64,000 nucleotides of DNA from a virus (IMGVR_UViG_3300028654_000015:1-64000); one strand, 5' to 3'; positions 1-59,570 are shown, counted from the stretch's first letter. Translations and numbers: made by a program. The notes: generated from the letters alone by a model not told the origin.

Positions 1-101
1 TAGGTCTTATTGTAATGTTGTCTTTCATAGTGATCATTACACTGCTTGCAGTAGCACCAATAGCATTAACGATTGCATTTTTGATTCATTTTCTACCATA
101 A
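1..101 (+). CDS. C-terminal part of a membrane protein (truncated by window edge)
   Basis: An open frame runs from the first bases of the window to TAA at 99-101. The roughly 32 visible residues are almost entirely hydrophobic (for example FIVIITLLAVAPIALTIAF), so this is most likely the last transmembrane segment of a small phage membrane protein. The start lies outside the window. It sits 6 bases upstream of the next gene in a compact small-gene array. No family can be named. Confidence 0.45.
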   Translation, partial: GLIVMLSFIVIITLLAVAPIALTIAFLIHFLP

Positions 102-107
102 TGTGAT

Positions 108-374
108 ATGAAACATAACTATGAGATTAGAATACTACCTAATGAAATTCTAATACAATATAGAGAAGTTGATGATATACTAAACCCATTGAAATTTCGA
201 CCTATTCAGGAATGGTTATTGACTCATTTTTCTACTTTAAAAGATATTTTATATCAAGTATTAGAATTTGAAGATGGTGTGTTCAACCACGACATGATAG
301 AAGTAATAACGGTCAATAATACTAGATATGCACTTAAGCAATATATTAGAAATCATGGTAATAGTTGGTTATGA
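108..374 (+). CDS. YGNxW-family small protein, copy 1
   Basis: 88 residues, first of eleven paralogues in this window. Family hallmarks are visible: a central TLKDILYQV motif (about residues 44-52) and a C-terminal LKQYIRNHGNSWL ending. There is no signal peptide or membrane segment. The N-terminal half is variable and beta-rich looking. The stop TGA overlaps the next family member's ATG (ATGA), implying translational coupling. I do not recognise the family and can assign no function; repeated duplication suggests an early accessory role under diversifying selection (inference). Confidence 0.85.
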   Translation: MKHNYEIRILPNEILIQYREVDDILNPLKFRPIQEWLLTHFSTLKDILYQVLEFEDGVFNHDMIEVITVNNTRYALKQYIRNHGNSWL

Positions 375-652
375 GTGATATTATAATATATCTAAATGCT
401 AATGTGTTTCCTGGAAGACTAGATATTCTAGATATTACTGTAAAGTATGGTAATAATATAGATGAATTAACATATCTGACCGAATGGCCAGAAGAACTAC
501 CAACCACACCAAAAGATCTTTTGTATCATTTATATAATACTATTCCTGGGTTTAATGTTGATGACATCAAACTTCATTGGACACACAGTCATATCATAGT
601 AACAATGAAACAGCATATACAATTACATGGTAATAAATGGATTGTACTATGA
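371..652 (+). CDS. YGNxW-family small protein, copy 2
   Basis: 93 residues from the ATG at 371, which overlaps the previous stop as ATGA; an upstream in-frame TTG at 365 is less likely. It has the family central motif (TPKDLLYHLY) and the C-terminal MKQHIQLHGNKW signature followed by three extra residues. Its own TGA overlaps an ATG at 649 of the next gene. Function unknown. It is one of five family members in the first 2.2 kb. Confidence 0.85.
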   Translation: MSDIIIYLNANVFPGRLDILDITVKYGNNIDELTYLTEWPEELPTTPKDLLYHLYNTIPGFNVDDIKLHWTHSHIIVTMKQHIQLHGNKWIVL

Positions 653-849
653 TCAATCAAAAGGTACGATTGTATTGTGTACAATGTGATAAGAAAAAAC
701 TATGTCGTGTTTTAGATGATCCTGCTAGATTTCATGCTGGATATGTTTTTGTGAAAATTGAATGTGAGTCATGTGGAATACGAGGTAAAATAACTACAGA
801 ACAATTAGAAGAAAAAGAAGAACACTGGAACCAAATACAATCGATATAG
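649..849 (+). CDS. Small zinc-ribbon protein
   Basis: 66 residues from ATG 649 (ATGA overlap with the upstream stop); an in-frame ATG at 637 would add four residues inside the previous gene. Two CxxC pairs (YCVQC near the N-terminus and CESC about 25 residues later) make a four-cysteine zinc ribbon, followed by a charged helix rich in Glu. Such small zinc ribbons are common in T4-like accessory regions and may bind nucleic acid or protein; the actual role is unknown. It interrupts the YGNxW array without belonging to it. Confidence 0.75.
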   Translation: MINQKVRLYCVQCDKKKLCRVLDDPARFHAGYVFVKIECESCGIRGKITTEQLEEKEEHWNQIQSI

Positions 850-851
850 TT

Positions 852-1130
852 ATGGATTTTATTATTGAAATATTTCACCACAAAACTCCTGTCCCAGGGA
901 GATCAGAAATTGAGATATTTGTATTGCAAAAAGAAGAGCATGATAACGACTATCATACTATTACAACTATAGATAGTGAAAAAATAACTCTTATGGAATT
1001 ATTATATCAAATTAGAGATACTTACAATGAACGATTTGTATTAGAGAATATTATTATGAACTTAAGATACCAAAGCATTAAATTATCTTTAGTTGAATAT
1101 GTTAGATTATATGGCAATAAGTGGATATGA
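852..1130 (+). CDS. YGNxW-family small protein, copy 3
   Basis: 92 residues. Central motif TLMELLYQIRD and C-terminus LVEYVRLYGNKWI match the family. The start is two bases after the previous stop. The stop TGA overlaps the next ATG at 1127 (ATGA). The variable N-terminal half shares little with its neighbours, while the motif spacing is kept, suggesting one fold with a variable surface. Function unknown. Confidence 0.85.
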   Translation: MDFIIEIFHHKTPVPGRSEIEIFVLQKEEHDNDYHTITTIDSEKITLMELLYQIRDTYNERFVLENIIMNLRYQSIKLSLVEYVRLYGNKWI

Positions 1131-1393
1131 AATTTTCTATCAGAATACAACGAACACAAATAGAAGTGGTGTGGTGTATCAACAAGGTTCCTATGCATTC
1201 TTTTTTCCTAAGAAATTCTACATTAAAAGAGATTTTATATAGAATGAAAGATAAAATTAGAAACGATTATGACTTTAAAGATTTTGTGATACTTGTTGAA
1301 AATTGGGAAATACAACACAAAATTTCAACATCTTCAATAGCAGTAGTCCCATTAGATGATTACATAAAACAATTTGGAAATACATGGGTTTAA
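1127..1393 (+). CDS. YGNxW-family small protein, copy 4
   Basis: 88 residues from ATG 1127, overlapping the previous TGA; a GTG at 1121 formed from the upstream Trp codon is an alternative start. Central motif TLKEILYRMKDK and C-terminal LDDYIKQFGNTWV are both present. It ends with TAA and is followed by a gap before the next gene, so it probably closes a first co-transcribed run of five genes. Function unknown. Confidence 0.85.
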   Translation: MKFSIRIQRTQIEVVWCINKVPMHSFFLRNSTLKEILYRMKDKIRNDYDFKDFVILVENWEIQHKISTSSIAVVPLDDYIKQFGNTWV

Positions 1394-1461
1394 CAGTTAT
1401 ACATTTATCTCGATATATGCTATTATATAGATAGCAGATTTTATTAATTTATGGATATTTT

Positions 1462-1596
1462 ATGACACACGATTTACTTATTATAGTTATTTTTGGAGTA
1501 CTTAGTTATATTTGGAGCAGGTCACTTATTGAATTTTTTGGATACTTTTTTGTTTTGAATTTACTCTTATATCTTGTTGAAAGAGTTATTCTTTAA
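1462..1596 (+). CDS. 44-residue membrane mini-protein
   Basis: A short ORF from ATG 1462 to TAA 1594-1596. The translation is very hydrophobic with one or two membrane-spanning stretches (LLIIVIFGVLSYIW and FFGYFFVLNLLLYLV) around a short polar SRS turn. It is in a 227-base gap between two family members. There is no convincing Shine-Dalgarno, so the call rests on hydrophobicity and position. It could be an early inner-membrane peptide; function unknown. Confidence 0.45.
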   Translation: MTHDLLIIVIFGVLSYIWSRSLIEFFGYFFVLNLLLYLVERVIL

Positions 1597-1602
1597 TATA
1601 GA
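1574..1602 (+). promoter_or_regulatory. Candidate sigma70-type promoter
   Basis: TTGTTG (1574-1579), a 17-base spacer, then TATAGA (1597-1602), with the next gene's ATG at 1621. Spacing is ideal but hexamer matches are partial, and A+T-rich sequence produces such matches by chance. Confidence 0.3.
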
Positions 1603-1620
1603 AAATTCTCATTATATATT

Positions 1621-1908
1621 ATGCCTCAATATATTATGAATCGATATAGTATCGAAATAATTATATTCGATGATCACGTTTTAAATATTAGTGACGCAAC
1701 TATACGAGCATATGATAATTTTTGTACACATAAGATATTAGAAGTTGATCGGTATAGACATACTCTTAAAGATATATTATATGCATTAAGATTTCAATGT
1801 CCCTCATTTGAGGTAAATAATATTTTTGTACAAGTGCCAGAAAAGGGACAATTTGCACTACGTGAATATATTAGATTATATGGAAACGAGTGGCCTATAA
1901 TTATATAA
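1621..1908 (+). CDS. YGNxW-family small protein, copy 5
   Basis: 95 residues. Central motif TLKDILYALRF and C-terminal LREYIRLYGNEW, followed by four extra residues. An internal ATG at 1636 (MNRYSIEI) aligns better with the N-termini of other members and may be the true start. No Shine-Dalgarno is obvious. The gene overlaps the next one by 19 bases, and the next start codon (GTG 1890) is built from this gene's conserved Trp codon. Function unknown. Confidence 0.8.
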   Translation: MPQYIMNRYSIEIIIFDDHVLNISDATIRAYDNFCTHKILEVDRYRHTLKDILYALRFQCPSFEVNNIFVQVPEKGQFALREYIRLYGNEWPIII

Positions 1909-2189
1909 TAAAAATACATCATACTATTGAAGATGTTGAAATTGGCATGACTTATCTTGGTGGAACATATGGTGATGTCTATGAATGTATTTCTGTTATA
2001 AGTAGAAAAGATATTACATTTAAAAATTTACTATACCATATCAAAGATATATTTAAAAAAGATATACCCAATTTTAAAATAGAACCAGAAGCATGGCAAG
2101 TTTATATAATAGAATTTGGTGCAACCACACCTTCAGCAGTATTTACATTAACACAATATGTAAAAAAGTATGGTAATCAGTGGATATAA
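1890..2189 (+). CDS. YGNxW-family small protein, copy 6
   Basis: 99 residues with a GTG start at 1890. No ATG occurs in frame until 1947, and the GTG-initiated N-terminus MAYNYIIKIHH resembles that of copy 10 (MALTNYIYSIH), supporting the choice. Central motif TFKNLLYHIKD and C-terminal LTQYVKKYGNQWI are intact. It ends directly against the 3' end of a convergent minus-strand operon. Function unknown. Confidence 0.8.
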   Translation: MAYNYIIKIHHTIEDVEIGMTYLGGTYGDVYECISVISRKDITFKNLLYHIKDIFKKDIPNFKIEPEAWQVYIIEFGATTPSAVFTLTQYVKKYGNQWI

Positions 2190-2366
2190 TCATACCCCTC
2201 GTACAAATAAAATGTAATAAACTACATAAAACCAACCAAAGAATCCATTTATTATCATCCAAAGAATATCATGATATGCTTGCCATGATATAAATCCTGC
2301 AACTAAGTTGCCTATCCCTATTGCGCCCAAACCAGTATTAAAATAAGTATTCATAAAAGTATCCAT
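2190..2366 (-). CDS. 58-residue membrane protein
   Basis: Minus-strand ORF from ATG at 2366 to TGA at 2190. The N-terminus is short and polar; two hydrophobic stretches follow (LGAIGIGNLVAGFISW and MIINGFFGWFYVVYYILF), with a short basic C-terminus, suggesting a two-pass inner-membrane protein. It is the last gene of a four-gene leftward operon and meets the rightward array tail to tail. No clear Shine-Dalgarno is visible. Function unknown. Confidence 0.55.
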   Translation of the reverse strand: MDTFMNTYFNTGLGAIGIGNLVAGFISWQAYHDILWMIINGFFGWFYVVYYILFVRGV

Positions 2367-2383
2367 TATATTAAAGTTATTAT

Positions 2384-2620
2384 TTACGCGTGACTTTCTT
2401 CAAACATTTTTTCAGACCTAACTATATCATGTGCTTGTTGGTAAATATCATGACCTAAAGTAGCACCCAAAAATATTCTAAGCATAGAACTGGTGTAGTA
2501 AATAGCATCTGTGCTATTTGTTCTAAATGCTTCTAATATATTAGATTCGATGCATACCAATTGTTTTTGAGTCAATGATATGCCTTCCGGAAATTCTATT
2601 AGACCATATTCTGTTTTCAT
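2384..2620 (-). CDS. Hypothetical protein (minus-strand operon)
   Basis: 78 residues, mostly helical, no membrane segment or known motif. The ATG at 2620 is preceded by an AAGGT ribosome-binding sequence. It lies one base from the gene at 2622 and is clearly co-transcribed. The opposite-strand ORF at 2580-2774 is a shadow. Function unknown. Confidence 0.75.
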   Translation of the reverse strand: MKTEYGLIEFPEGISLTQKQLVCIESNILEAFRTNSTDAIYYTSSMLRIFLGATLGHDIYQQAHDIVRSEKMFEESHA

Positions 2621-2621
2621 T

Positions 2622-2834
2622 TTATACCTTTTTTGCTACAATTCTTTTAATTTTATAATCTCTACCATCTTTCATCAGAAAAGATATAGCATTAATTCTA
2701 TTGGAATCACAATCGAAAAAATTTTGTTTTTCATGAAAATGTCCAAGTTGGGTATTAAGATCATTCATAATTGAAATATTGCCGTACTTATCGTGCAATA
2801 TGTTTAGTTTTTCTATTAGTGTGGAAATATTCAT
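2622..2834 (-). CDS. Hypothetical protein (minus-strand operon)
   Basis: 70 residues. The N-terminal half (STLIEKLNILHDKYGNISIM) is a helix-strand pattern often seen in small phage proteins, and the C-terminus is basic (DYKIKRIVAKKV). A good AAGGA ribosome-binding site precedes ATG 2834. It is the second gene of the leftward operon. No family recognised. Confidence 0.75.
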   Translation of the reverse strand: MNISTLIEKLNILHDKYGNISIMNDLNTQLGHFHEKQNFFDCDSNRINAISFLMKDGRDYKIKRIVAKKV

Positions 2835-2844
2835 TTTATTCCTT

Positions 2845-3033
2845 TTAAATTAAGTTATATGTTAGATTCTGTGTCAGTTCTTCTAAGAAATCTTTTGTGT
2901 ATGTGATATGATTTCTAACATATACCAGATCTTCAAAGTTTAAATTTGTATTGTTTCCAAGATTGAGAGAATCTATAGTCGATTCTACTGAATCAAGTTC
3001 GTCCATTAGTTGTCTTAGTTCTTTCGATATCAT
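2845..3033 (-). CDS. Hypothetical acidic helical protein (minus-strand operon)
   Basis: 62 residues, acidic and helical (KELRQLMDELDSVESTIDSL), possibly a short coiled coil. An AGGAAC ribosome-binding sequence lies before ATG 3033. It is the first gene of the leftward four-gene operon, so its promoter should lie in the 3034-3252 divergent region. Function unknown. Confidence 0.75.
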   Translation of the reverse strand: MISKELRQLMDELDSVESTIDSLNLGNNTNLNFEDLVYVRNHITYTKDFLEELTQNLTYNLI

Positions 3034-3252
3034 AATTGTTCCTTATGTTTATAAAATATACATATATCATAACACTACTATATTTCCATGACATGACTAC
3101 AATCATGAAACACTAGATAGTGTTATTAATACCTTGATATTATTGATTATAATAGATAAGAAATATTCTTAGAGGATCTACTATGGTTAGTAATTGACGA
3201 TAGTTTTTTGATTTGTTACACTTATACATTGTATATTTTGAATTATTAATGT
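3034..3252. promoter_or_regulatory. Divergent promoter/operator region
   Basis: This 219-base non-coding gap separates a leftward operon from a rightward one. It contains a perfect 16-base palindrome (AACACTA GA TAGTGTT, 3109-3124), with the same AACACTA half-site again at 3071-3077, and TTGACG-N17-TACACT at 3194-3222 facing right. A+T-rich -10-like sequences face left near 3040-3060. The palindrome plus repeated half-site would suit a dimeric regulator that controls both directions (inference). Confidence 0.5.
3194..3222 (+). promoter_or_regulatory. Sigma70-type promoter, rightward
   Basis: TTGACG at 3194-3199, exactly 17 bases, then TACACT at 3217-3222. The predicted start would be about 3229, giving a leader of about 24 bases to ATG 3253. 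The -35 hexamer is nearly consensus. It would drive the second YGNxW gene run by host RNA polymerase. Confidence 0.5.
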
Positions 3253-3564
3253 ATGCCACTACCAATACATGTAGAAGTTATCATCAATGAATTATTAGAT
3301 TCGTTCAGAAAAACAGATATCATCACAGAAAGAACTGCAACAAATTGTATTAAATTATATTTCGAAAAAAGTAAATATCTAGATGATGGAAAATTATTAA
3401 ATAAATTGATGAAACTTATAGAAATAATAGAAAACAAATATCATTTAAAAAATGAAAATTTGCATGTGAGTTTAAATGGACCTTCTGTATTTTACAATAT
3501 GACAAAATATCAAAATTTGTTTGCTAAATCAAACTATCATGAAATAGAACTAAGTATTATATGA
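3253..3564 (+). CDS. Hypothetical protein heading the second small-gene run
   Basis: 103 residues, lysine-rich and helical, without the LK[DE]xLY or GNxW signatures, so not a family member although it heads the second array. Helical stretches cover most of the first 70 residues (LLNKLMKLIEIIENKY). Its stop overlaps the next start as ATGA at 3561, so it is translationally coupled to copy 7. Function unknown. Confidence 0.75.
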   Translation: MPLPIHVEVIINELLDSFRKTDIITERTATNCIKLYFEKSKYLDDGKLLNKLMKLIEIIENKYHLKNENLHVSLNGPSVFYNMTKYQNLFAKSNYHEIELSII

Positions 3565-3818
3565 CCTTTATAGATCAAAATAAATATACTATATGTCTTT
3601 CAATGGACCGAATAATATTTGTTACACATCACAGACCGCCAGCAGAGATGTTCTATAAATCAGACATATCTTTGAGGGATTTATTATATGGTCATAAAAG
3701 AAGATTAAAAACTACAATAGTACCAGATAACTGGAAAGTCATTATAGAAGATACAACAATAACAGTAGAACTAACATTACGAGAATATGTTCAAAGATAT
3801 GGCAATAGATGGATTTAA
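3561..3818 (+). CDS. YGNxW-family small protein, copy 7
   Basis: 85 residues from ATG 3561 (ATGA overlap). Central motif SLRDLLYGHKRR and C-terminal LREYVQRYGNRWI. The invariant Trp codon supplies the ATG of the next gene (agATGGat), giving a 10-base overlap. Function unknown. Confidence 0.85.
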   Translation: MTFIDQNKYTICLSMDRIIFVTHHRPPAEMFYKSDISLRDLLYGHKRRLKTTIVPDNWKVIIEDTTITVELTLREYVQRYGNRWI

Positions 3819-4144
3819 AAAATCTGATGACCTTTTCAAATATAATAAATCACAATCAAACTCTAGAAACAACAACTTTTCGATTAACTAGAAAAAGAGA
3901 CGATTGGATTGTTAAACTAGAATATTATGATGAAGCATTACAAGAATATAAAGAACTATTAGATATTTCAATAAACTCTATAACACTGAAAGATGCTCTG
4001 AAAAAGATTAAATATGTGTTTGAGTTGCCCCAGATACATCCAATGAATTGGATTATGGTATATCCATCTAAATTGGACGAAGAATGTGATGACGAGTTAG
4101 AATTACAATACTATGTAAAAAGATTTGGTAATACCTGGCAATGA
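3809..4144 (+). CDS. YGNxW-family small protein, copy 8
   Basis: 111 residues, the longest family member. The start ATG at 3809 lies inside the Trp codon of copy 7; an in-frame ATG at 3827 is an alternative. The central motif is degenerate (TLKDALKKIKYVF, lacking the usual Tyr) and the C-terminus is LQYYVKRFGNTWQ. The stop overlaps ATG 4141. Function unknown. Confidence 0.8.
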   Translation: MDLKNLMTFSNIINHNQTLETTTFRLTRKRDDWIVKLEYYDEALQEYKELLDISINSITLKDALKKIKYVFELPQIHPMNWIMVYPSKLDEECDDELELQYYVKRFGNTWQ

Positions 4145-4413
4145 ATGTCATATTAATAGCACAACGAAAAACTTCAGTAAATGTATTCATTTGGATACCG
4201 TCAGCCGATCCTGCTCTTGAACCAGAGAAAGGTTATTGGACAAATCTATATACTCTGTTAGATAAAAATATAACATTAAAAGAAGTTCTTTATATGATAT
4301 ATAAAAATCCTGAAGTAAAATTTTTTGATATTACATCCATTACAGTAGGAGATGGACTGTCACAACTTAAATTAAAAGATTATATACAAATATATGGCAA
4401 TTCATGGCGTTAA
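4141..4413 (+). CDS. YGNxW-family small protein, copy 9
   Basis: 90 residues. Central motif TLKEVLYMIYK and C-terminal LKDYIQIYGNSWR. ATG 4141 overlaps the previous TGA. The next gene begins at 4404 within this gene's Trp codon, with the same 10-base overlap as between copies 7 and 8, so the junction itself was probably duplicated. Function unknown. Confidence 0.85.
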   Translation: MNVILIAQRKTSVNVFIWIPSADPALEPEKGYWTNLYTLLDKNITLKEVLYMIYKNPEVKFFDITSITVGDGLSQLKLKDYIQIYGNSWR

Positions 4414-4652
4414 CTAATTACATATACTCAATACATATTAAAGATTCTTATATACTAGTCGATCATATCGTTGATATCTATTATACAACTCTATGGCAAG
4501 AATCAAAATTGGTTAGTCTTAAAGATACCTTGTATAGAATAAAAAATCATAATCTAAATTACTTTAATTGGGAAACAATTTATCTAGTTAAAGACAAGAA
4601 TACATGGAATCTAAAAAGATATATCAAAGAATTCGGAAATACTTGGATATAA
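4404..4652 (+). CDS. YGNxW-family small protein, copy 10
   Basis: 82 residues, the shortest copy. Central motif SLKDTLYRIKNH and C-terminal LKRYIKEFGNTWI. Its ATG is formed across the Trp codon of copy 9. It ends with TAA and is followed by a 51-base gap. Function unknown. Confidence 0.85.
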   Translation: MALTNYIYSIHIKDSYILVDHIVDIYYTTLWQESKLVSLKDTLYRIKNHNLNYFNWETIYLVKDKNTWNLKRYIKEFGNTWI

Positions 4653-4703
4653 TTATACTTATTTGTTGAAAAGTATATATTACTATGATAAAGTATTAAA
4701 TTC

Positions 4704-5012
4704 ATGCGTAAACTCAAAGCAGAAATAGACCCGAAACAAACAAACTTCGAAATTTTTGTGAATACGTGGACTAATATAGGCGAAGTATATGCATCTTATT
4801 GTAACGTGGTACCAATATTTGAATTTGACACATCAGAGTGTGATTTAAAAACAGTTTTATATAATATAAAACAGAAAAATCAAGGATATATTCCTGTAGA
4901 TACCATTGTTTTACATATTGGTAATAATATGAATAGTAATAGATATCGAGTGAAAGATTATATAAAAAATTGGGGAAATATCTGGACCAGATTTCAAACA
5001 TATGGAAAATAA
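4704..5012 (+). CDS. YGNxW-family small protein, copy 11
   Basis: 102 residues. Central motif DLKTVLYNIKQK; the C-terminal signature is the diverged VKDYIKNWGNIW followed by a unique eight-residue tail. A TATGAT -10-like sequence lies at 4684-4689. It overlaps the next gene by 11 bases. The last recognisable member of the array, and the most diverged at its end. Function unknown. Confidence 0.8.
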   Translation: MRKLKAEIDPKQTNFEIFVNTWTNIGEVYASYCNVVPIFEFDTSECDLKTVLYNIKQKNQGYIPVDTIVLHIGNNMNSNRYRVKDYIKNWGNIWTRFQTYGK

Positions 5013-5211
5013 AAAGACAGAACTTACTTCTATTGATAAAAAAGATTTGGAATTACTTCTAGCAATACAAGAATGGGCAACAGAAGCAATGAATATTTTA
5101 AGTTTGAATTTGAATGAATTTTCAGAGAAAGAATTGCAGAATGTAATTGAATATCAAACTGTCAATAAACTTTTAAAAATTTACGAAAAATATAATAAAA
5201 ATGTCAGTTAA
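5002..5211 (+). CDS. Hypothetical small helical protein
   Basis: 69 residues, charged and almost wholly helical, with no membrane segment. It overlaps both neighbours (11 bases each), which makes co-translation likely. It does not carry the YGNxW signature. No family recognised. Confidence 0.7.
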   Translation: MENKKTELTSIDKKDLELLLAIQEWATEAMNILSLNLNEFSEKELQNVIEYQTVNKLLKIYEKYNKNVS

Positions 5212-5704
5212 TCCAGATCCATTTAAAACAGATATTTCCATTGATCCAGACTTAAAAGAAATAGCAGAAAAAGTTAGATCAAAATTATTTGCATCGAATA
5301 AAACTTCTATAAAACCTTATATGGAATCTGCAATTCATACCGGCGGATTTAACAAAATAGAAAAAGTATATCATTCTCCTAGTGGCGAAACGAAAGAACA
5401 TGGAGGATATAATTCTGTAGAGTTTGTGTTTTTAATAGATGAAAATCTTGATACTCATGTGATGGAAGACAAATTACGTATATTGTCAAACTTTCTTCTA
5501 AATTTATATGGAAGACAAGGTATTAATTTAACTTTTGATGTAACACCTAGGAACAAATCGTATACAAAAGATGTCATTTATGTTATACGATGTATAATAA
5601 CAGATAAAACTAGAGTAATATTACCACCTAGTATAGTGAGTAGTATCAGAACAATATTCAAAAAAATCTACGAATATTTCGTACCAAAGAAAAATATCAC
5701 TTGA
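5201..5704 (+). CDS. Hypothetical protein, 167 residues
   Basis: A soluble protein with an acidic N-terminal helix, a central glycine/His patch (HTGGFNKIEKVYH, then KEHGGYNSVEF) and alternating strands and helices to a basic C-terminus. It overlaps the preceding gene by 11 bases. The mixed alpha/beta pattern suggests a folded domain, but no catalytic motif can be named. Function unknown. Confidence 0.75.
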   Translation: MSVNPDPFKTDISIDPDLKEIAEKVRSKLFASNKTSIKPYMESAIHTGGFNKIEKVYHSPSGETKEHGGYNSVEFVFLIDENLDTHVMEDKLRILSNFLLNLYGRQGINLTFDVTPRNKSYTKDVIYVIRCIITDKTRVILPPSIVSSIRTIFKKIYEYFVPKKNIT

Positions 5705-5729
5705 TGATTTCTATCCATAATGTTATAGT
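5701..5729 (+). promoter_or_regulatory. Sigma70-type promoter with start codon at predicted transcription start
   Basis: TTGATG (5701-5706), 17 bases, TATAGT (5724-5729). The expected transcription start is about 5736, exactly the A of the metallophosphoesterase ATG. No Shine-Dalgarno precedes that ATG, so the mRNA may be leaderless. Confidence 0.5.
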
Positions 5730-5735
5730 GTAATA

Positions 5736-6332
5736 ATGACTACCTGGTTTACAGCAGATACGCATTTTAATCATAACAATATTCGCTTCTATTGCGGCAG
5801 ACCCTTTGAAACAGTAGAACAAATGAATAATACTATGATTACCAACTGGAACGCAGTTATACAACCAAGGGATGTTGTATATCATATTGGTGATTTTGGG
5901 TTTGGTAATGTTCACTATTTAAATGGACTTGCACAAAAATTACATGGTACTATCAATATAATTCTTGGTAATCACGATAAAGAAGTAAAAAAAGATCCAC
6001 TATGTAATAGATTTGGTTTCATTAAAGATATGCATATTTTGAAAACCAAACATGATAATAAAACATATGAATTGTTCTTGTTTCATTATGCATGTAGAAC
6101 TTGGTATAAATCAAATCACGGATGTATTCATCTATTCGGACACTCTCATGGTAAAATGCCTCCATATGGACTTTCAATGGATGTTGGTGTTGATACTAAT
6201 AATTTCTTTCCATATTCATTAGAACAAATTTTACAAAAGATGAACACGTTTTCTCCAAAACTTGATTATGATCCTAACTATAATGGAAAAACATACCAAG
6301 AAATACCACAAGTAAAAGAAGAAGATGCTTAG
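5736..6332 (+). CDS. Calcineurin-like metallophosphoesterase
   Basis: 198 residues. All metallophosphoesterase motifs are visible in order: D8xH10 (ADTHFNH), GDFGF (D53), GNHD (N79, H80), a lone His at about 117 (LFHYA) and GHSHG (H136, H138). These bind a two-metal centre that hydrolyses phosphomono- or diesters. Homologues of this size are common in phages; the substrate is not known, with nucleotides, 2',3'-cyclic phosphates or nucleic acid ends all possible. It overlaps the next gene by 8 bases and probably forms a unit with a nucleotidyltransferase and a deaminase. Confidence 0.9.
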   Translation: MTTWFTADTHFNHNNIRFYCGRPFETVEQMNNTMITNWNAVIQPRDVVYHIGDFGFGNVHYLNGLAQKLHGTINIILGNHDKEVKKDPLCNRFGFIKDMHILKTKHDNKTYELFLFHYACRTWYKSNHGCIHLFGHSHGKMPPYGLSMDVGVDTNNFFPYSLEQILQKMNTFSPKLDYDPNYNGKTYQEIPQVKEEDA

Positions 6333-6906
6333 TATAATACCGAACAACAGATTTCATTTTAAACTACCAACTTTTCAATATTCGAATTGTTGGATTGCAG
6401 GAGGATGTCTTCGTTCTTCTTTGCTGAACGAAACCCCAAATGATATTGATATATTTGGACCTGATGAAAATTCAATTCAAAATTTTATTGATTTAAATTT
6501 AAATAATGCAAAACTGATACACAAATCTAAAGTACTAGAATCATATATTCTAAATGGGCTCAAAATACAAGTAGTGAAAAGAAAATATTATAATAGTATT
6601 GAAGAGTGTTTAACTGGTTTTGATTATACTATATGTCAATTTGCATTTGATGGTGTTACTTATTTCTCAACACCAGAAGCGGTCATAGATACATATGCTC
6701 ATAAATTGGTTATCAATAAATTAGATAAAGATTTTGTAATAGATTCATTAAGAAGAATGACCAAATATATAAAATATGGGTTTACTATCTGTGATGGTGG
6801 ACTAAAAAATATAGTAGAATCAATTAGATCATTAAAAGATGAAGAAGTTAAAAATCAAATAGAATTCTATCCAAATGGGGGACCTAGAATTAATAGGTTC
6901 GATTAA
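6325..6906 (+). CDS. Nucleotidyltransferase-fold protein
   Basis: 193 residues. The N-terminal part carries the pol-beta nucleotidyltransferase signature: GGCLRSSL (26-33), then NDIDIF with D40 and D42 as metal ligands, resembling the head domain of CCA-adding/poly(A) polymerases. A third carboxylate may be in FDYT. The C-terminal half is helical, as in phage homologues of this type. It could transfer a nucleotide to RNA or protein; the acceptor is unknown. It overlaps the metallophosphoesterase gene and abuts the deaminase. Confidence 0.75.
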   Translation: MLSIIPNNRFHFKLPTFQYSNCWIAGGCLRSSLLNETPNDIDIFGPDENSIQNFIDLNLNNAKLIHKSKVLESYILNGLKIQVVKRKYYNSIEECLTGFDYTICQFAFDGVTYFSTPEAVIDTYAHKLVINKLDKDFVIDSLRRMTKYIKYGFTICDGGLKNIVESIRSLKDEEVKNQIEFYPNGGPRINRFD

Positions 6907-7275
6907 ATGCAAACCAAAGATTATAGATTTTTTAATCTTGCAAAAAAGATATCATATAAAAGTACTCATGATCAGCATAGATTAGGAGCAGTAATAGTAA
7001 AGAAAAATAAAATTATTTCTGTAGGATTTAATCAAGCGAAAACTCACACAAAGTCAAAACACCCAATGAGAACTATACATGCAGAATTTGATGCAATCTT
7101 AAATGTACCTAGAAATGAACTACAAAACGCACATGTCTATGTTTATAGAGAAACAAAAGATGGTAAACTTGCCGCATCTAAACCTTGCAAATTCTGTCAT
7201 CAAATGTTAAAAAGTCTTGGTATACAAAAAGTTTATTATACTTCTATTAATGGATATCATTCTTACGAATTATGA
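6907..7275 (+). CDS. Cytidine/deoxycytidylate deaminase family protein
   Basis: 122 residues with the zinc deaminase motifs HAE (58-60, catalytic Glu60) and PCKFC (93-97). The HAE...PCxxC order is that of cytidine/dCMP deaminases. T4 dCMP deaminase is longer (193 residues), and this protein lacks an obvious allosteric insertion, so the substrate may be cytidine, dCMP or another base. It likely feeds dTMP synthesis. The ATG immediately follows the preceding stop, and its own TGA overlaps the next ATG at 7272. Confidence 0.85.
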   Translation: MQTKDYRFFNLAKKISYKSTHDQHRLGAVIVKKNKIISVGFNQAKTHTKSKHPMRTIHAEFDAILNVPRNELQNAHVYVYRETKDGKLAASKPCKFCHQMLKSLGIQKVYYTSINGYHSYEL

Positions 7276-11275: not shown

Positions 11276-12211
11276 ATGGATTTTTTAGGGAAGCAGGGAT
11301 TTTACAATTGGATTGGTGTAGTCGAGGACAGACACGATCCCCTAAAACTTGGGCGTGTAAGAGTAAGAATTGTTGGGTATCATACAAAAGATAAACAACA
11401 GATGCCCACAAATGAATTACCTTGGGCGCAAGTTCTTTTCCCTGCTGATACAGGAAGAAACGTAGTTGGTCTAAAAGAAAGAGATTGGGTAGGTGGTTTC
11501 TTTTTAGATGATGATAGAGCGCAAGAACCTGTAGTGCTAGGTAAATTTGCGGGGATACCAGAAGAAATTTCAAATCCTACAATAGGGTATATGGATCCTA
11601 CTCCCGATCCAGATTTAACTCCTCAGAAACAACCAAGACCACCAGAGATGTCACCTATACCTGCTGATGTATCTGGTTCAGATAATAGTGGTAGTAGTTT
11701 ATTTTCAAATGCATCTTCTTTACCTGGTGATAATACTGCTTTTGGACAATTATCGAGTCAATTCAGTACAAGCAATTATAAATTCGATGTTAATAATGAT
11801 GGTGTATATAATGCAATAGACGCAAAAACATTATCACAAAGTATTCAGGCAAGTAATAAATTACCATCTTCATCGTCTTCTATTTCTAATAACAATTCAT
11901 CTGGCCCTATAAGTAGATATCCATTAGATACACTATTAAAAGAACCTGATAGTAGCAGATTAGCAAGAGCAGAAAAATTATCATTAACTATTGTTGCAAA
12001 AAAATTAGCGAATCTTGTAAATTCTGGTACAGCAACACATCCTGGTAGTGGGGTTGGTACTGATGCTCCACATATTACAGAACCATTTTCTGAACCACCT
12101 ACACCATATGATGCGAAGTATCCATTCAATCATGTATATGATAGTGAATCTGGACATGTACATGAAATAGATGACACACCACAAAAAGAAAGATTGCATC
12201 AATATCATTGA
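11276..12211 (+). CDS. gp5: Baseplate hub/spike protein gp5, N-terminal part (ends at in-frame UGA)
   Basis: 311 residues before TGA 12209-12211. Residues 14-36 (GVVEDRHDPLKLGRVRVRIVGYH) match the T4 gp5 OB-fold almost word for word, so this is the piece that docks on gp27. The central lysozyme domain of T4 gp5 is absent; instead a Ser/Pro/Asn-rich linker contains an EF-hand/dockerin-like loop DVNNDGVYNAID (171-182). Near the end, DSESGHVHEIDDTPQKER matches the T4 segment that leads into the C-terminal needle. The reading frame then hits UGA, yet the homology continues in the same frame beyond it. This may be readthrough, a genuine split gene or a sequence error. Confidence 0.85.
   Translation: MDFLGKQGFYNWIGVVEDRHDPLKLGRVRVRIVGYHTKDKQQMPTNELPWAQVLFPADTGRNVVGLKERDWVGGFFLDDDRAQEPVVLGKFAGIPEEISNPTIGYMDPTPDPDLTPQKQPRPPEMSPIPADVSGSDNSGSSLFSNASSLPGDNTAFGQLSSQFSTSNYKFDVNNDGVYNAIDAKTLSQSIQASNKLPSSSSSISNNNSSGPISRYPLDTLLKEPDSSRLARAEKLSLTIVAKKLANLVNSGTATHPGSGVGTDAPHITEPFSEPPTPYDAKYPFNHVYDSESGHVHEIDDTPQKERLHQYH
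12209..12211 (+). other. In-frame UGA inside gp5
   Basis: Translation through this codon gives QYH-stop-SGSFVEVHPNG, which aligns without a gap to T4 gp5 LVHPTGTYEEVSPSG: the stop replaces exactly one residue. A single base change from AGA or CGA (Arg) would produce it. There is no ATG near the stop in the downstream frame until 12344. No indel is needed, so a frameshift is not the explanation. Confidence 0.8.
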
Positions 12212-12343
12212 TCTGGTTCTTTTGTAGAAGTACATCCAAATGGAACAAAAGTAACAAAAGTAGTAAAAAAGAATTTCGAATTAGTAACAGACAATCATTT
12301 TTTCAATACAGCAAAAAATGCAACAATAACTGCTAATAAAGAC

Positions 12344-13201
12344 ATGTATTTAAAAAGTAAAGAATACATGAACATAGAATCAGACATTGATATGAATCAT
12401 GATGTTGGTCGTGATTCTAATTCATCTATAGCAAGAAATGTAAACACTAGGGTAAATAATGATGTATTCATTGTAATCGGTAAAGATGGAAAAATAGTTA
12501 TAAAAGGAAATCTAGATTTATCAGTTACAGGTGATATCAAAATAAAAGCGGGTGGCAATTTCTTGGTAGATGCTGCTAATATTCGAACTACTGCTGCTAT
12601 CGAAAATGTTGTTGCAGCCGGTATAGCCACAATTACAGATGCGCCTATTACTTCTTTAGGTGGAGAACTTGCTGGTGATATTAGAGCAGTATCAGCATTA
12701 AGTATTGGTGCAGGTCCTCTTCCACCAATACCATCTACCGTAACCGAAAGTAATGATGCAGATGATATTAGTAGTACTATTCAAGCATTCATCACACCAA
12801 AACCAGGATTTATTCTTTCTGGTCCTGCTGGTGATATCTATAAACCAATATCTGATAGTGATGGTAAATTAGTTACAATTAGTAATCAAGCATCTGCATC
12901 TCATGAATTATATGAAGCATTACCAACTGGTGCATTACAAACATTAAATGTACAATTTAAAAATGCAGATAATTCTATCACTACATGGAATGTAGTAAGA
13001 CCTGTACACACATTGGGCAGATTCATAGAAAGTGGTAGATTTTCTTCCAATCCTGGAGAAGAAATGCAGATCTATAGATTCTCTCAACCAGGTTCTTCTT
13101 ATCCAAAACAGATGTTTTTAAAAATGGGTACTAAACAATATCTGATATTAGATTCTAGTGTAAGACATGCTTCTTTTGGAGGGCCGTTGCTTGGTTACTA
13201 A
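12344..13201 (+). CDS. gp5: Baseplate spike protein gp5, C-terminal needle part
   Basis: 285 residues from the first ATG; coding homology actually starts right after the UGA at 12212 (330 codons open). It resembles T4 gp5C: the VHPNGTKVTKV lead-in, then repeating strands (VFIVIGKDGKIVIKGNLDLSVTGDIKIKAGG) like the VxG repeats of the triple-stranded beta-helix needle. About 170 further residues have no T4 match. T4 gp5 is cleaved near this region, so two polypeptides are tolerable in the virion, but an independent start at 12344 lacks a good Shine-Dalgarno and would lose about 44 conserved residues. I favour readthrough of one 641-codon gene. Confidence 0.7.
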   Translation: MYLKSKEYMNIESDIDMNHDVGRDSNSSIARNVNTRVNNDVFIVIGKDGKIVIKGNLDLSVTGDIKIKAGGNFLVDAANIRTTAAIENVVAAGIATITDAPITSLGGELAGDIRAVSALSIGAGPLPPIPSTVTESNDADDISSTIQAFITPKPGFILSGPAGDIYKPISDSDGKLVTISNQASASHELYEALPTGALQTLNVQFKNADNSITTWNVVRPVHTLGRFIESGRFSSNPGEEMQIYRFSQPGSSYPKQMFLKMGTKQYLILDSSVRHASFGGPLLGY

Positions 13202-13571: not shown

Positions 13572-13964
13572 ATGCCTGCTGTTTCTAAACTTTATAGTGA
13601 TCTAGACCTCGACTTTTTACCTCATCCCGTTAATGGTGATGTGAATACACTAACTGATAGCGACTCAGTAAAAAGAGCAGTCCGAAATCTAGTATTAACT
13701 AATATATGGGAACGACCTTTTCAGCCAAATTTAGGTTCTGGTATTGTTCAATACCTATTTGAAAATATAAGTCCTTTGACCAAAGTATCAATAGAATCAG
13801 CAGTCAAGGACGTATTACGTGCATATGAACCTAGAATCACAGTAATAAGTGTGGTTGCTAATGTGAATAATGATCAAAATGGATATGATTGCACAATAAC
13901 ATTTGCAGTTGATAATCAAAGTGAAATTGTTTCTATCGATCTATTTTTAGAGAGAATCCGATAA
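13572..13964 (+). CDS. gp25: Baseplate wedge protein gp25
   Basis: 130 residues, against 132 in T4. It has the gp25/TssE features: N-terminal SKLYSDLDLDF, then DSVKRAVRNLVLTNIWERPFQPNLGSG, the conserved nucleation motif for the sheath, and a C-terminal strand region. Gp25 joins the wedge core with gp6 and gp53 and starts sheath polymerisation. It is followed after one base by gp6, the usual partner. Confidence 0.95.
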   Translation: MPAVSKLYSDLDLDFLPHPVNGDVNTLTDSDSVKRAVRNLVLTNIWERPFQPNLGSGIVQYLFENISPLTKVSIESAVKDVLRAYEPRITVISVVANVNNDQNGYDCTITFAVDNQSEIVSIDLFLERIR

Positions 13965-49425: not shown

Positions 49426-50952
49426 GTGGCATTTCAAAAAAGTGGTACATTGAAATATTGGTCTGATGGACAACCCTTCGTTGGTGTCAGAAGCAAAACT
49501 ATTACATGTCAAGGTGTAAAATATTGGTCAAATGGTCAACCAGGAGAGCCAGTATTTGACGTAGACCAATTCATAACTTGCACTGGTATTGCATCTGCTC
49601 AAGCATTTGGTACCGCATTAATTAATAGATATGTAAATGTTTCTGGTCATAGTATTTCCTCATCTCAAGCATTTGGTAGTGATACTATTGTTTTATATCT
49701 AAATGTTTCTGGTCATAGCATTACAAGTTCAGAAGCATTCGGGACTGCTTTAATTAATAGAAATATATTATGTACTGGTATTGCTTCATCCCAAACATTC
49801 GGGACTGCTTTAATTAATAGAAATATATTATGTACTGGTATTGCTTCATCCCAAGCATTCGGTAGTGATATTATAGTACTATATGAAAAGCCTATAGGTA
49901 TTATTTCTCAAGAAGCATTCGGTACTGCTTTAATTAATAGAAATATATTATGTACTGGTATTGCTTCATCCCAAGCATTCGGTACTGCTTTAGTTACTGA
50001 ATATATAAATGTTTCTGGTCATAGCATTGCAAGTTCAGAAGTATTCGGTACTGCGTTAATTAATAGAAATATTATATGTACGGGTATTGCATCTGCTCAA
50101 GCATTCGGTACTGCTTTAGTTACTGAGTATATAGTACCATCTGGTATTGCATCTGCTCAAGCACTTGGTACCGATTTAATTATTCTATATGAAAAACCAA
50201 CATCTATAGCAAGTGCGGAAGCATTTGGTACTGCTTTAATTGTAGAATATTTAAATGTATCTGGACACAGTATAGCCTCTGGTCAAGCACTTGGTATACC
50301 TTCAGTTTCAGAATCAGTAACAGTTTTTGCAATACCATCTCAAGAAGCATTTGGTACTGCTTTAATTAATAGAAATATTTTTTGTACTTCAATAAATTCA
50401 TCTGAACAGTTTGGTAGTACAACTATAGTTTTATATTTAAAACCAACTACGATAAGTACACAAGAAATAGTATATTCACCAGATGTCTATCAAATTATAC
50501 AAACTGCTGGTATTATATCACAAGAACATATTGGTGATGATTTAATCATTCTATATGAAATACCCAATACAATACCTTCGCAAGAAGCATTTGGTACCTC
50601 TATAATAGTATTATACTTAGTACCAACAACTATATCATCAGAAGAAATTGTATCACCCGCTATTATATTTGCAGAAGATATTACTGATACATCTATACCC
50701 TCTGCTGAAGCATTCGGACTTTCACAACTAAATCTTACTCTATTTGCTACTGATATTATATCATTAGAAGCATTTGAAATTCCAATCATAACAAGAATAT
50801 TGGGTATGACTGGAGTTAGTATTCCAAGTGAAGAAGCATTCGGTCCCAAAATTTGGGTGGTCAATTGTGGCAAACCTGGTGATAAGAGATCACAAATCTA
50901 CTCAAATCGTGGAAGAAACACATTTCCAAAATCTTATAGATATACTACATAA
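49426..50952 (+). CDS. EAFG-repeat virion protein
   Basis: 508 residues with a GTG start at 49426, four bases after the previous stop. After about 45 residues with two KYWS-x-GQP motifs, it consists of 21 units of about 20 residues of the pattern I-x-S-x-[EQ]-A-F-G-x-x-x-[IL]; three units are nearly identical at DNA level. The final unit (SIPSEEAFGPKIW) matches the unit in the 15771-17429 baseplate protein (SIPSQEAFGPKIV). The C-terminus is basic (KRSQIYSNRGRNTFPKSYRY). Probably a fibrous, surface-exposed protein; function unknown. Confidence 0.75.
   Translation: MAFQKSGTLKYWSDGQPFVGVRSKTITCQGVKYWSNGQPGEPVFDVDQFITCTGIASAQAFGTALINRYVNVSGHSISSSQAFGSDTIVLYLNVSGHSITSSEAFGTALINRNILCTGIASSQTFGTALINRNILCTGIASSQAFGSDIIVLYEKPIGIISQEAFGTALINRNILCTGIASSQAFGTALVTEYINVSGHSIASSEVFGTALINRNIICTGIASAQAFGTALVTEYIVPSGIASAQALGTDLIILYEKPTSIASAEAFGTALIVEYLNVSGHSIASGQALGIPSVSESVTVFAIPSQEAFGTALINRNIFCTSINSSEQFGSTTIVLYLKPTTISTQEIVYSPDVYQIIQTAGIISQEHIGDDLIILYEIPNTIPSQEAFGTSIIVLYLVPTTISSEEIVSPAIIFAEDITDTSIPSAEAFGLSQLNLTLFATDIISLEAFEIPIITRILGMTGVSIPSEEAFGPKIWVVNCGKPGDKRSQIYSNRGRNTFPKSYRYTT
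49741..49860 (+). repeat. 60-bp tandem DNA repeat inside the EAFG gene
   Basis: Bases 49741-49800 and 49801-49860 differ at a single position (49795 A versus 49855 G). A third copy at 49921-49980 differs from the second at one base (49923). Period 60 bases = 20 codons. Confidence 0.9.
49921..49980 (+). repeat. Third copy of the 60-bp repeat
   Basis: 59 of 60 bases identical to 49801-49860, one diverged unit apart. Points to recent expansion by slippage or recombination. Confidence 0.85.
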
Positions 50953-53234: not shown

Positions 53235-54542
53235 ATGTATCTTTCTGAAGACCTTCAAAAGAAATGGGAATCGGTGCTAGAGCATCAGGATCTTCCCAAA
53301 TTAAATTCACATAAGAAAGCAGTTCTTTCGGTTCTTCTTGAGAACCAAGAAAGAGAAACTCGCAACGATGGAACAACCCGTTCTGGACTTCTCCAAGAAA
53401 GTTCGCCAGCAAATGCTAGTGCAGGGTTTCCAAATAACAACGCAAATCTAAAAGGTTATGATCCAGTTTTGATCTCTTTGATCAGACGTGCTCTTCCTAA
53501 CCTAATCGCATTTGACGTGTGTGGCGTTCAGCCAATGAAGGCTCCCACGGGATTGATTTTTGCAATGAAGTCACGTTATACCTCACAAGGTGGAAACGAA
53601 GCATTATTCTTCGAAGCAGACAGTTCTTTCTCTGGTAATCTTCAAGATGCTAACTCATCTCCTCTTGATCCATTTGGTCCTCCTACACCAGGTCGTCCTC
53701 TCACCACATCTGATGGTGAAGCATTGGGTGACGGTACTGCAACCTCTACCAAGCCTGCTCAATTCCCAGAAATGGCGTTCAGCATTGACAAGGTAACAGT
53801 TGAAGCAAAGACTCGTGCTCTTAAAGCAGAGTACACAATGGAAATCGCGCAAGATCTTAAAGCAGTACACGGACTTGATGCTGAAGCAGAACTTGCGAAT
53901 ATTCTTTCAGCAGAAATTCTTGCTGAAATCAACCGAGAAATTATCCGTACTATTTACAACAACGCAGTACTTGGTGCACAGAATGATGTTGCAACCCCTG
54001 GTACTTTTGACCTTGATGTAGATTCAAACGGACGTTGGTCAGTTGAAAAGTACAAAGGTTTGATGGTTCAGATCGAAAGAGATGCTAACGCAATTGCGAA
54101 AGCAACTCGTAGAGGTCGTGGTAACTTCCTGATTTGCGATTCTGATACTGCTTCTGCTCTTTCAGTTGCAGGTCTTCTCGACATCGGAAGTGCTCTCAAA
54201 GATAATCTAAATGTTGATGATACTGGTAACACTTTTGTCGGTGTTCTTAACGGACGTTTCAAAGTGTTTATCGATCCATATGCAGTACTTGGTAGCAACT
54301 TCTATGTTTGCGGATTCAAGGGTGCAAATCAATACGATGCTGGTCTCTTTTACTGCCCTTACGTACCTCTTCAGATGGTTCGTGCTGTTGGTGAAGAAAC
54401 TTTCCAACCTAAAATTGGATTCAAGACTCGTTATGGTATCGTAACTAACCCATTTGGTAATGCAAATGGTAACTCAGACGGTTCTCTTGCACAAAGAGCA
54501 AACGTCTATTATCGTGCCGTGAAAGTACTTCATTTACTTTAG
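53235..54542 (+). CDS. gp23: Major capsid protein gp23
   Basis: 435 residues, T4 gp23 521 (including its 65-residue propeptide). RRALPNLIAFDVCGVQPM (84-101) is the universal gp23 signature; MEIAQDLKAVHGLDAEAELANIL (202-224) and MVRAVGEETFQPKIGFKTRYGIVTNPF also match. SGLLQESSPANA gives a candidate gp21 cleavage site after E55. HK97 fold, hexamers of the capsid. Codons such as CTT, CGT and AAC are preferred, unlike neighbouring small genes. Ends with TAG and a strong terminator. No gp24 vertex gene follows. Confidence 0.97.
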   Translation: MYLSEDLQKKWESVLEHQDLPKLNSHKKAVLSVLLENQERETRNDGTTRSGLLQESSPANASAGFPNNNANLKGYDPVLISLIRRALPNLIAFDVCGVQPMKAPTGLIFAMKSRYTSQGGNEALFFEADSSFSGNLQDANSSPLDPFGPPTPGRPLTTSDGEALGDGTATSTKPAQFPEMAFSIDKVTVEAKTRALKAEYTMEIAQDLKAVHGLDAEAELANILSAEILAEINREIIRTIYNNAVLGAQNDVATPGTFDLDVDSNGRWSVEKYKGLMVQIERDANAIAKATRRGRGNFLICDSDTASALSVAGLLDIGSALKDNLNVDDTGNTFVGVLNGRFKVFIDPYAVLGSNFYVCGFKGANQYDAGLFYCPYVPLQMVRAVGEETFQPKIGFKTRYGIVTNPFGNANGNSDGSLAQRANVYYRAVKVLHLL

Positions 54543-54573: not shown

Positions 54574-54601
54574 AAAAATGGGTCCTTCGGGACCCATTTT
54601 T
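54574..54601 (+). terminator. Rho-independent terminator after gp23
   Basis: Stem AAAAATGGGTCC / GGACCCATTTTT with a TTCG tetraloop, 12 bp, ending in T's. It closes the late morphogenesis block. The ATG inside it (54578) is not a gene start. Confidence 0.92.
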
Positions 54602-54611
54602 ATTGGTTCTA

Positions 54612-54640
54612 TTGACGGAAAGAAAAACTTGTGTTATTCT
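54612..54640 (+). promoter_or_regulatory. Sigma70-type promoter before homing endonuclease gene
   Basis: TTGACG (54612-54617), 17 bases, TATTCT (54635-54640). The predicted start is 54647, the ATG itself, as at 5736 and 63241. It gives the endonuclease early expression independent of the late gp23 transcript. Confidence 0.5.
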
Positions 54641-54646
54641 AATAAC

Positions 54647-56002
54647 ATGAGAAAACCCAAACAATATTATAATTCTATCACTAAAAAGATGATAGAAAAT
54701 GATGTGGAAAATAATCTATCTCAATATGAGATTGCCAATAAGTATGGCATTACTAGACAATTTGTTAGAGATTTGTTTCATAAATTTGGAATTACAATAT
54801 CAAATAGAAGAACACAACCACCAATAGATAAAGATATTCTAATAAAAGAAAATCATAAAAATCTATTAACCTTAAAACAAATTTCAGCAAAATATAATAG
54901 AACATATAAATCTATAAAGGATATGTTTAAGAAATATAACATATCACCCAAGAATAATGTAATTCATAAAAATATTATAAAAAGAGAAGAAATATTAAAT
55001 TCGATAGAACTAAATCAATTATATGGAAAATTAACAAAAATAGAAGTACAAAAACAATTAAATATTGGACAAAAATATTTGGATGAAGCACTAAAAGAAA
55101 AAAATATAGAGAGGAAATTCTTTAATAGATCTTCACAAGAAAAAGAACTTGAGGCACATTTGAAAGCAGTAATGCCAAATGAAACTATATTATCAAATGT
55201 TAAAAACATAATTTCAAAAGAAATAGATATATTTGTTCCTAATAAAAATGTTGGTATAGAATTGCATGGGTTATATTGGCATAATCCTATAGTAAAAAAT
55301 ATTGGTAAGAAATATCATTACGATAAAGCCACAGAAGCACACCATAAAGATATACTATTGCTTCAGTTCTTTGAAGACGAATGGATATTAAAGAAAGAAA
55401 TATGCAAATCTATTATATTAACAAATCTTGGAATATACCAAAAATTGTATGCGAGAAAATGTAGTATTAAAATAATCACAAACCAAGAAACGAAAGAATT
55501 TTGTGAACATAACCATCTTCAAGGTCACACAAATGCTAGTGTTTGTCTTGGATTATATTATAATACAACCTTAGTTTCTATAATGTCTTTTGGACGACCA
55601 AGATTTCATAAATCGGCACCAAAAGATCAATGGGAATTATTGCGATTTTGTTCTATATTGAACACCAAAGTTATTGGTGGTGCATCTAAATTATTTTCTT
55701 ATTTTATTAATAATTTTAAACCGAAGCATATATATTCATATTCAGATAGAAGAATATCAAAAGGAGATTTATATACGAAACTAAATTTCAAATTAGAAAA
55801 GATAACAGAACCGAATTATAGTTATATTGTAGGCAAACAAAGATCAAATAGAATGAATTGGCAAAAAAACAAATTGAAAACTAAATTAAAAATATTCGAT
55901 CCAAACTTAACAGAAATCGAAAATATGGTTCTTAACAAGTACTTTCCAATATACGATGCAGGAAATATATTATGGTCATGGTCAAATGAAAATAAATCTT
56001 AA
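54647..56002 (+). CDS. Free-standing homing endonuclease, Vsr-like (EDxHD superfamily)
   Basis: 451 residues from ATG 54647; a longer frame starting at 54578 would begin inside the gp23 terminator. Two helix-turn-helix-like repeats lead (about 22-43 and 72-95), then a nuclease core: KEIDIFVP (191-198), GIELHGLYWH (203-212), AHHKD and FEDEW (242-246), as in Vsr-like homing enzymes (I-Bth0305I/ Hef type). Mobile genes like this spread by cutting allelic sites, commonly next to gp23. It overlaps the RNA ligase gene by 17 bases. Codon use is very A-rich, unlike gp23. Confidence 0.8.
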   Translation: MRKPKQYYNSITKKMIENDVENNLSQYEIANKYGITRQFVRDLFHKFGITISNRRTQPPIDKDILIKENHKNLLTLKQISAKYNRTYKSIKDMFKKYNISPKNNVIHKNIIKREEILNSIELNQLYGKLTKIEVQKQLNIGQKYLDEALKEKNIERKFFNRSSQEKELEAHLKAVMPNETILSNVKNIISKEIDIFVPNKNVGIELHGLYWHNPIVKNIGKKYHYDKATEAHHKDILLLQFFEDEWILKKEICKSIILTNLGIYQKLYARKCSIKIITNQETKEFCEHNHLQGHTNASVCLGLYYNTTLVSIMSFGRPRFHKSAPKDQWELLRFCSILNTKVIGGASKLFSYFINNFKPKHIYSYSDRRISKGDLYTKLNFKLEKITEPNYSYIVGKQRSNRMNWQKNKLKTKLKIFDPNLTEIENMVLNKYFPIYDAGNILWSWSNENKS

Positions 56003-59211: not shown

Positions 59212-59365
59212 CCTTGACGAGGAATTGATAAAATATTTGCTTCCAGATATGGAAATAAGAGAATATGCTATAAAACTAGCAAAAGAAGTTCTAGAAGAAA
59301 TACGACTAGATTCTATAAGAATAGAATCAAAGAAAGCATGGCAACAACATGAAAATGGAGATTGA
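59201..59365 (+). CDS. 54-residue helical protein
   Basis: ORF from ATG 59201 (overlaps the SLOG gene) to TGA 59363-59365 (overlaps the next gene by 17 bases). One long charged helix (REYAIKLAKEVLEEIRLDSIRIESKK), weakly similar to the helix in the next gene (SDEILAEINREVIRTI), and a final ENGD, echoing ENGE in that gene. Function unknown. Confidence 0.6.
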   Translation: MLNDLDEELIKYLLPDMEIREYAIKLAKEVLEEIRLDSIRIESKKAWQQHENGD

Positions 59366-59570
59366 ATCATATCAAGAACTACAAGCAATTCATGGATTAG
59401 ATGCACAAAATGAATTGGTGAAAATTCTTTCGGATGAAATTCTTGCAGAAATTAATAGAGAAGTAATTAGAACAATATATAATGAAGAAAGACATGAATA
59501 CTATTATGAATTTCAAAAACAAAAACGTAATGATATAATAATATGGTGTGATCATGAGAATGGAGAATGA
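59349..59570 (+). CDS. Free-standing fragment of the major capsid protein
   Basis: 73 residues. Residues 9-45 (QELQAIHGLDAQ...INREVIRTIYN) match gp23 residues 206-242 with 28 of 37 identical. The matching gp23 stretch is the conserved HGLDAxxEL segment of the capsid fold. The DNA has diverged strongly at synonymous sites, so the peptide has been kept by selection rather than copied recently. The rest is unrelated. It cannot form a capsid protein; a decoy, competitor or regulator of assembly is plausible (inference). Confidence 0.75.
   Translation: MKMEIESYQELQAIHGLDAQNELVKILSDEILAEINREVIRTIYNEERHEYYYEFQKQKRNDIIIWCDHENGE

Follow-up and report, generated by a model that had tools for sequence, protein, structure and literature searches.

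Among the chief origins of novel host inhibitors and of counter-defence functions in phages are diversified accessory proteins, most of which are single ORFans. The nearest works-like analogue of the family reported here, by way of analogy only, is provided by the T4 internal proteins (Ip1, Ip2, Ip3 and their relatives in Tequatrovirus): a T4-type phage carries several small, non-essential versions in which a shared module is joined to a variable part, and the three versions that were tested differ in the GmrSD enzyme that they block (PMC12373910). Three to about ten versions have been described, and the part that they share is an N-terminal packaging signal. Another comparable locus is the 'ORFanage' of S-PM2, a hyperplastic region of a T4-type phage that consists of a cluster of small ORFs without homologues (PMC4503421); in the available part of that article the 33 ORFs are not described as one family, and the words 'paralog' and 'duplication' do not occur.

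We describe here an array of small phage ORFs that differs from both. Eleven copies reside together in one phage and, unlike the S-PM2 ORFs, make up a single family, in which the shared part is the C-terminal half, ending in a GNxW motif. The T4 internal proteins show no sequence match to it among the PHROGs, and since their shared part is N-terminal the array proteins do not belong with them: the N-termini of the eleven are not conserved, and the conserved N-terminal capsid-targeting signal is absent. We regard the family as real and not previously described; it has been seen in a single phage to date, and its copy number is unusual. Eleven co-resident paralogues with one constant and one variable half constitute a built-in comparison, with which one can ask whether a single scaffold has been retargeted to many partners, and how new binding proteins arise by duplication.

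The array lies in a stretch of 64,000 bases (hereafter the window), which forms positions 1-64000 of a linear viral record 78,367 bases long. The phage is a T4-superfamily myovirus, from environmental DNA. Its terminase is about 53% identical to that of Pelagibacter phage Mosig, and its major capsid protein about 60% identical to those of Pelagibacter phage HTVC008M and the Methylophilales Melnitz phages; tail sheath, gene 5 OB-domain protein, DNA helicase and late sigma factor are encoded as well. As the genomes of these relatives (Mosig, HTVC008M, Melnitz) are 141-147 kb long, the record probably represents about half a genome, and the missing part may therefore hold additional copies. The array itself begins 107 bases from the contig end, so that eleven copies is a lower bound. 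It occupies one end of a variable island of small ORFs, located upstream of baseplate gene 5 and ending at the gene 5 OB-domain ORF (Table 1). Phage Melnitz also has an island, of about 30 small ORFs, immediately before that gene; neither this family nor any paralogues occur in it. As in a phage ORFan or hyperplastic island, the small ORFs of the array are clustered and had no homologue beyond the lineage in the searches given below, and the position is as in Melnitz. The gene 5 OB domain stands on an ORF of its own, followed by a separate ORF, an arrangement that resembles the split OB-domain/hub genes annotated in Melnitz.

All eleven ORFs lie where the sequence-only reading had placed them, and they are intact and on the same strand, from 108 to 5012. 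The word 'tandem' holds with a qualification: the array falls into two blocks (108-2189 and 3561-5012) and is interrupted by three single non-family ORFs and a minus-strand cassette (Table 1). One of these ORFs, the zinc-ribbon-like one, has a weak match to PHROG 599 (Lar-like restriction alleviation proteins, E 0.004) and no Pfam match. Copies 1, 3 and 8 end as ATGA overlaps with the next copy, and the start codons of copies 6, 8 and 10 span the invariant Trp codon of the preceding copy. These overlapping starts suggest translational coupling of neighbours, and the arrangement would form a clean duplication unit. We rejected the next gene's start codon as the main cause of GNxW retention, given that copies 4, 6, 10 and 11 keep the motif although no family member overlaps their ends. 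In a paralogue screen of 125 sequence stretches, a non-random sample, this array was the largest tandem cluster of small ORFs.

Table 1. Features of the array, of its surroundings and of other loci in the window
Feature	Coordinates	Strand	Remarks
Copy 1	108-374	+	88 aa; ATGA overlap with copy 2
Copy 2	371-652	+	93 aa
Non-family zinc-ribbon-like ORF inside array	637-849	+	start 637 or 649; CxxC...CxxC, from sequence
Copy 3	852-1130	+	92 aa; ATGA overlap with copy 4; modelled, pLDDT 89.2
Copy 4	1127-1393	+	88 aa
Non-family ORF inside first block	1462-1596
Copy 5	1621-1908	+	95 aa
Copy 6	1890-2189	+	99 aa; GTG start (1890) across Trp codon of copy 5
Cassette of four small ORFs, splits array	2190-3033	-	2190-2366, 2384-2620, 2622-2834, 2845-3033; ORF 2190-2366 has a predicted-membrane-like sequence
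Non-family ORF directly 5' of second block	3253-3564	+
Copy 7	3561-3818	+	85 aa
Copy 8	3809-4144	+	111 aa; ATG (3809) across Trp codon of copy 7; most divergent, leave-one-out E 5.6e-6
Copy 9	4141-4413	+	90 aa
Copy 10	4404-4652	+	82 aa; ATG (4404) across Trp codon of copy 9; modelled, pLDDT 86.5
Copy 11	4704-5012	+	102 aa
Gene 5 OB-domain ORF, then separate ORF	11276-13201	+	end of small-ORF island at 11276
Late promoter	13528	+	before gene at 13572
Late promoter	41258	+	before tail sheath gene at 41317
Predicted tail protein gene	49426-50952	+	PHROG 13352
Late promoter	50953	+	before gene at 50995
Late promoter	51797	+	before gene at 51839
Late promoter	53194	+	before major capsid gene at 53235
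Major capsid gene	53235-54542
Homing endonuclease gene	54578-56002	+	PHROG 3339, E 5e-96
Major capsid fragment ORF	59349-59570	+	PHROG 138

That the copies form one family was borne out by profiles: when each member was searched with a profile built from the other ten, every one was recovered (E 5.6e-6 to 1e-13), with scores of 23-48 bits against about 10 for the best decoy among about 2,900 shuffled ORFs. A profile of all eleven, run against the 78,367-base record, matched exactly these eleven and no twelfth copy. The family is nevertheless highly diverged: pairwise identity averages 26% (range 15-39%), and adjacent copies are slightly more alike than others (28% versus 26%, p 0.027). Invariant in all copies are GNxW and the Leu of 'LY', and nothing else; two Tyr residues, that of 'LY' and the one preceding GNxW, are each kept in 10 of 11. 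The central motif first written as [ST]LK[DE]xLY is looser than that, being strictly present in only five copies. All eleven frames are intact, the other two forward frames containing about 10 stops per 90 codons. The invariant residues use synonymous codons (Gly by GGT, GGC or GGA, Leu by five codons, Asn by AAT or AAC), so the motif is kept at the protein level.

Splitting the proteins at the TLKD helix into an N-terminal and a C-terminal half revealed a marked contrast. The C-terminal half, from the TLKDxLY helix to GNxW, holds nearly all of the signal: it was recovered at 3.6e-5 to 1.1e-11 and stands about 13 sd above realigned shuffles. By leave-one-out profiles, none of the N-terminal halves was recovered (E 0.29 or worse, not above decoys). 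Their mean score after realignment was 18.4, compared to 9.1 (sd 4.3) for shuffles, that is, about 2.2 sd higher and reached by 0 of 60 shuffles; this similarity lies mostly within the first 22 residues. The N-terminal half is thus heavily diverged rather than clearly unrelated. The earlier description of fixed ends around a variable N-terminal half is right in that the C-terminal half is constant and the N-terminal half highly divergent, but the N-terminus itself is not fixed. To call the remainder 'otherwise unrelated sequences' went too far, both because of this residual similarity and because the two copies modelled share the order of secondary-structure elements over their whole length.

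Copies 3 and 10 were modelled from the eleven-row alignment; as both runs use the same sequences, they are not fully independent. Both models were confident (pLDDT 89.2 and pTM 0.78 for copy 3, 86.5 and 0.75 for copy 10), and both displayed the order strand-strand-strand-helix-strand-strand-helix, with GNxW after the last helix. Unrelated folds, which structure prediction might have disclosed, were not seen in these two copies. On these models, each copy seems to be a complete small domain and not an unrelated head joined to a common tail. As GNxW directly follows the final helix, in a region modelled with confidence, it may cap the structure rather than mediate an interaction. Foldseek searches with both models gave no E below 0.001. 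VIA-align returned Z values up to 5.1 and 5.5, within the range reached by common arrangements, and many of the rows were RNase-H-like folds. Members of that superfold (HIV integrase core, HIV RT connection domain, actin-like ATPases) have a similar strand and helix order over about 65-75 residues, but Z is at most 5.5, identity 1-12%, and the family domain is much smaller. No Asp/Glu column is conserved in strand 1 or strand 4 of the eleven-copy alignment, where the conserved columns are hydrophobic; RNase-H-type catalysis is unlikely, because the conserved acids are absent where such enzymes need them. The best whole-length match in BFVD was E0YIP6 of Lactococcus phage 949, a protein of 85 aa and unknown function (TM 0.61/0.65, Foldseek probability 1.00). 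Its E was 0.012 and its identity 13%, and its probable ORF (6408-6665) lacks both TLKDxLY and GNxW; with a similar strand and helix pattern and the motifs absent, we regard it as an analogy only.

Searches for relatives agreed with the initial statement that the family matched none known. Membership of an established family was taken to mean a profile match above the curated or accepted cut-off, common to several members; Pfam, PHROGs, NCBIfam and PADLOC gave scattered weak single-member matches only, the best (E 0.003) below the curated cut-off. Against PDB sequences, the best match to the family profile was Cmr5 (E 0.033), which was taken as chance. In a collection of 50,697 phage records, distant blastn of positions 1-7275 found no relative, and tblastn on phages gave a best E of 0.8 for copy 11 and no match for the profile consensus; viral contigs searched with copy 4 alone contained no relative either. 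Two degenerate DNA patterns spanning the LY helix to the GNxW tail, which catch close relatives only (within the window they match 3 and 5 of the eleven family members themselves), extracted 39 and 18 stretches from IMG/VR, with 0 relatives by profile, and the same kind of pattern extracted two stretches from GTDB genomes, neither of them a relative. The profile found no family member in 85 whole viral or phage records (24 + 49 + 12). With gene 5 as anchor, the family was absent from 893 kb around the gene in the 80 closest gp5 contigs (best E 0.47), and neighbouring genes used as anchors (phosphoesterase, deaminase) led to distant phages only. The literature searched for tandem arrays of paralogues in phages held no matching description. 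The collections may not include the records nearest to this genome, so the family may well be present in sister phages.

The window contains five sites of the T4-type late promoter TATAAATA, compared to 17 expected by chance; all of them are on the plus strand and each lies 41-59 bases before a non-array gene (Table 1), which makes them strongly placed late promoters. No such site precedes the array in the 64,000-base window. This argues, without proving, that the array genes are not late genes with their own promoters, although the absence of a consensus promoter would be compatible with expression other than early. Sites resembling sigma-70 promoters were no more frequent than in shuffles.

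The explanation that we favour, tentatively and at somewhat below an even chance, is that the array represents a family confined to this lineage and multiplied by duplication, whose members are accessory proteins that are not expressed late and have diversified towards different targets. Repeated tandem duplication in the variable island upstream of gene 5 would have generated a family of small accessory proteins, each copy folding as a single small domain of b-b-b-a-b-b-a order. Of this fold, the C-terminal half (TLKDxLY helix, strand pair, last helix and GNxW cap) would be the conserved part, and the N-terminal strands and loops would have diverged to bind different partners. Neighbours that overlap by a few bases would probably be translated jointly, and their expression as late genes is improbable. 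Each copy would most likely bind and modulate a different host protein, either a defence component or a host enzyme; more broadly, host or phage proteins that differ from copy to copy are the probable targets during infection, and an arms race is a plausible driver of their divergence. The T4 internal proteins Ip1-3, several shared-module proteins in one phage each directed against a different GmrSD nuclease (PMC12373910), offer a precedent. We counted in favour of this explanation the family recovered by leave-one-out, the intact frames, the synonymous codons, the shared fold order, the contrast between the two halves, the overlapping starts, the Melnitz-like island, the lack of TATAAATA before the array, and the absence of the family from the 80 gp5 loci; timing, binding, host targets and divergence as selection for different targets are what we infer from them. 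The charge differences among copies (pI 5.0-9.2, net charge -5.3 to +2.8) suit different targets and are not evidence of them; with these values the strongly acidic composition of DNA-mimic anti-restriction proteins (Ocr/Arn type) is lacking. Two observations weigh against diversification for different targets: drift in a tolerant island would diversify the N-terminal half too, and a C-terminal half common to all eleven fits a shared partner equally well.

A shared partner would mean that the copies are subunits of a hetero-oligomer, or adaptors that dock by the C-terminal half on one host or phage machine while the N-terminal half specialises in position or cargo. The part conserved in 11 of 11 copies is indeed the C-terminal one, and several copies are coupled in one reading unit, but conservation falls at helix and core-type positions and may reflect the fold alone; we consider this reading rather unlikely. 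It is improbable that the C-terminal half serves all copies as a docking module by which eleven different N-terminal faces attach to a single host or phage machine; in that case the array would be a set of adaptors, encoded by the phage, that redirect or shield this machine towards many targets simultaneously. Drift leads to a decidedly unlikely reading, hyperplastic growth, in which duplicates accumulate in an ORFan island that tolerates them and persist through dosage or a weak redundant benefit, and the N-terminal half drifts without distinct targets. The same place is a small-ORF island in Melnitz too, adjacent copies are the slightly more similar ones, and S-PM2 in culture is reported to have lost a block of 33 ORFans with a rise in fitness (PMC4503421). 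Such growth accounts for the location and not for the retained motifs (PMC4503421): for eleven frames to stay intact and the motifs to stay invariant at a mean identity of 26%, purifying selection must have acted on every copy for a long time. It is quite improbable that the proteins are packaged and injected as T4 internal proteins are, with the C-terminal half as packaging module: a constant module with a variable part, in many versions in one phage, recalls the Ips (PMC12373910), but the Ip signal is N-terminal whereas the N-terminus varies here, and no consensus late promoter precedes the array whereas five other genes have one. Very improbable, finally, are catalysis-free RNase-H-like domains acting on nucleic acid or mimicking a nuclease subunit; the weak structural matches of both models are mostly to such folds, but Z does not exceed 5.5, no Foldseek E falls below 0.001, the acids of strands 1 and 4 are not conserved, and half of the copies are acidic.

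Elsewhere in the window, a small ORF 3' of the capsid region holds a fragment of the major capsid protein: 41 of its residues are 71% identical to residues 202-242 of the capsid gene product, with 73% DNA identity over 90 bases, and it looks like an old partial duplication of that gene. Directly 3' of the major capsid gene lies a homing endonuclease gene, which overlaps the RNA ligase / tail-fibre attachment gene. The predicted tail protein is built from many repeats of the I(A/P)S(S/A)xxAFGTxLI type.
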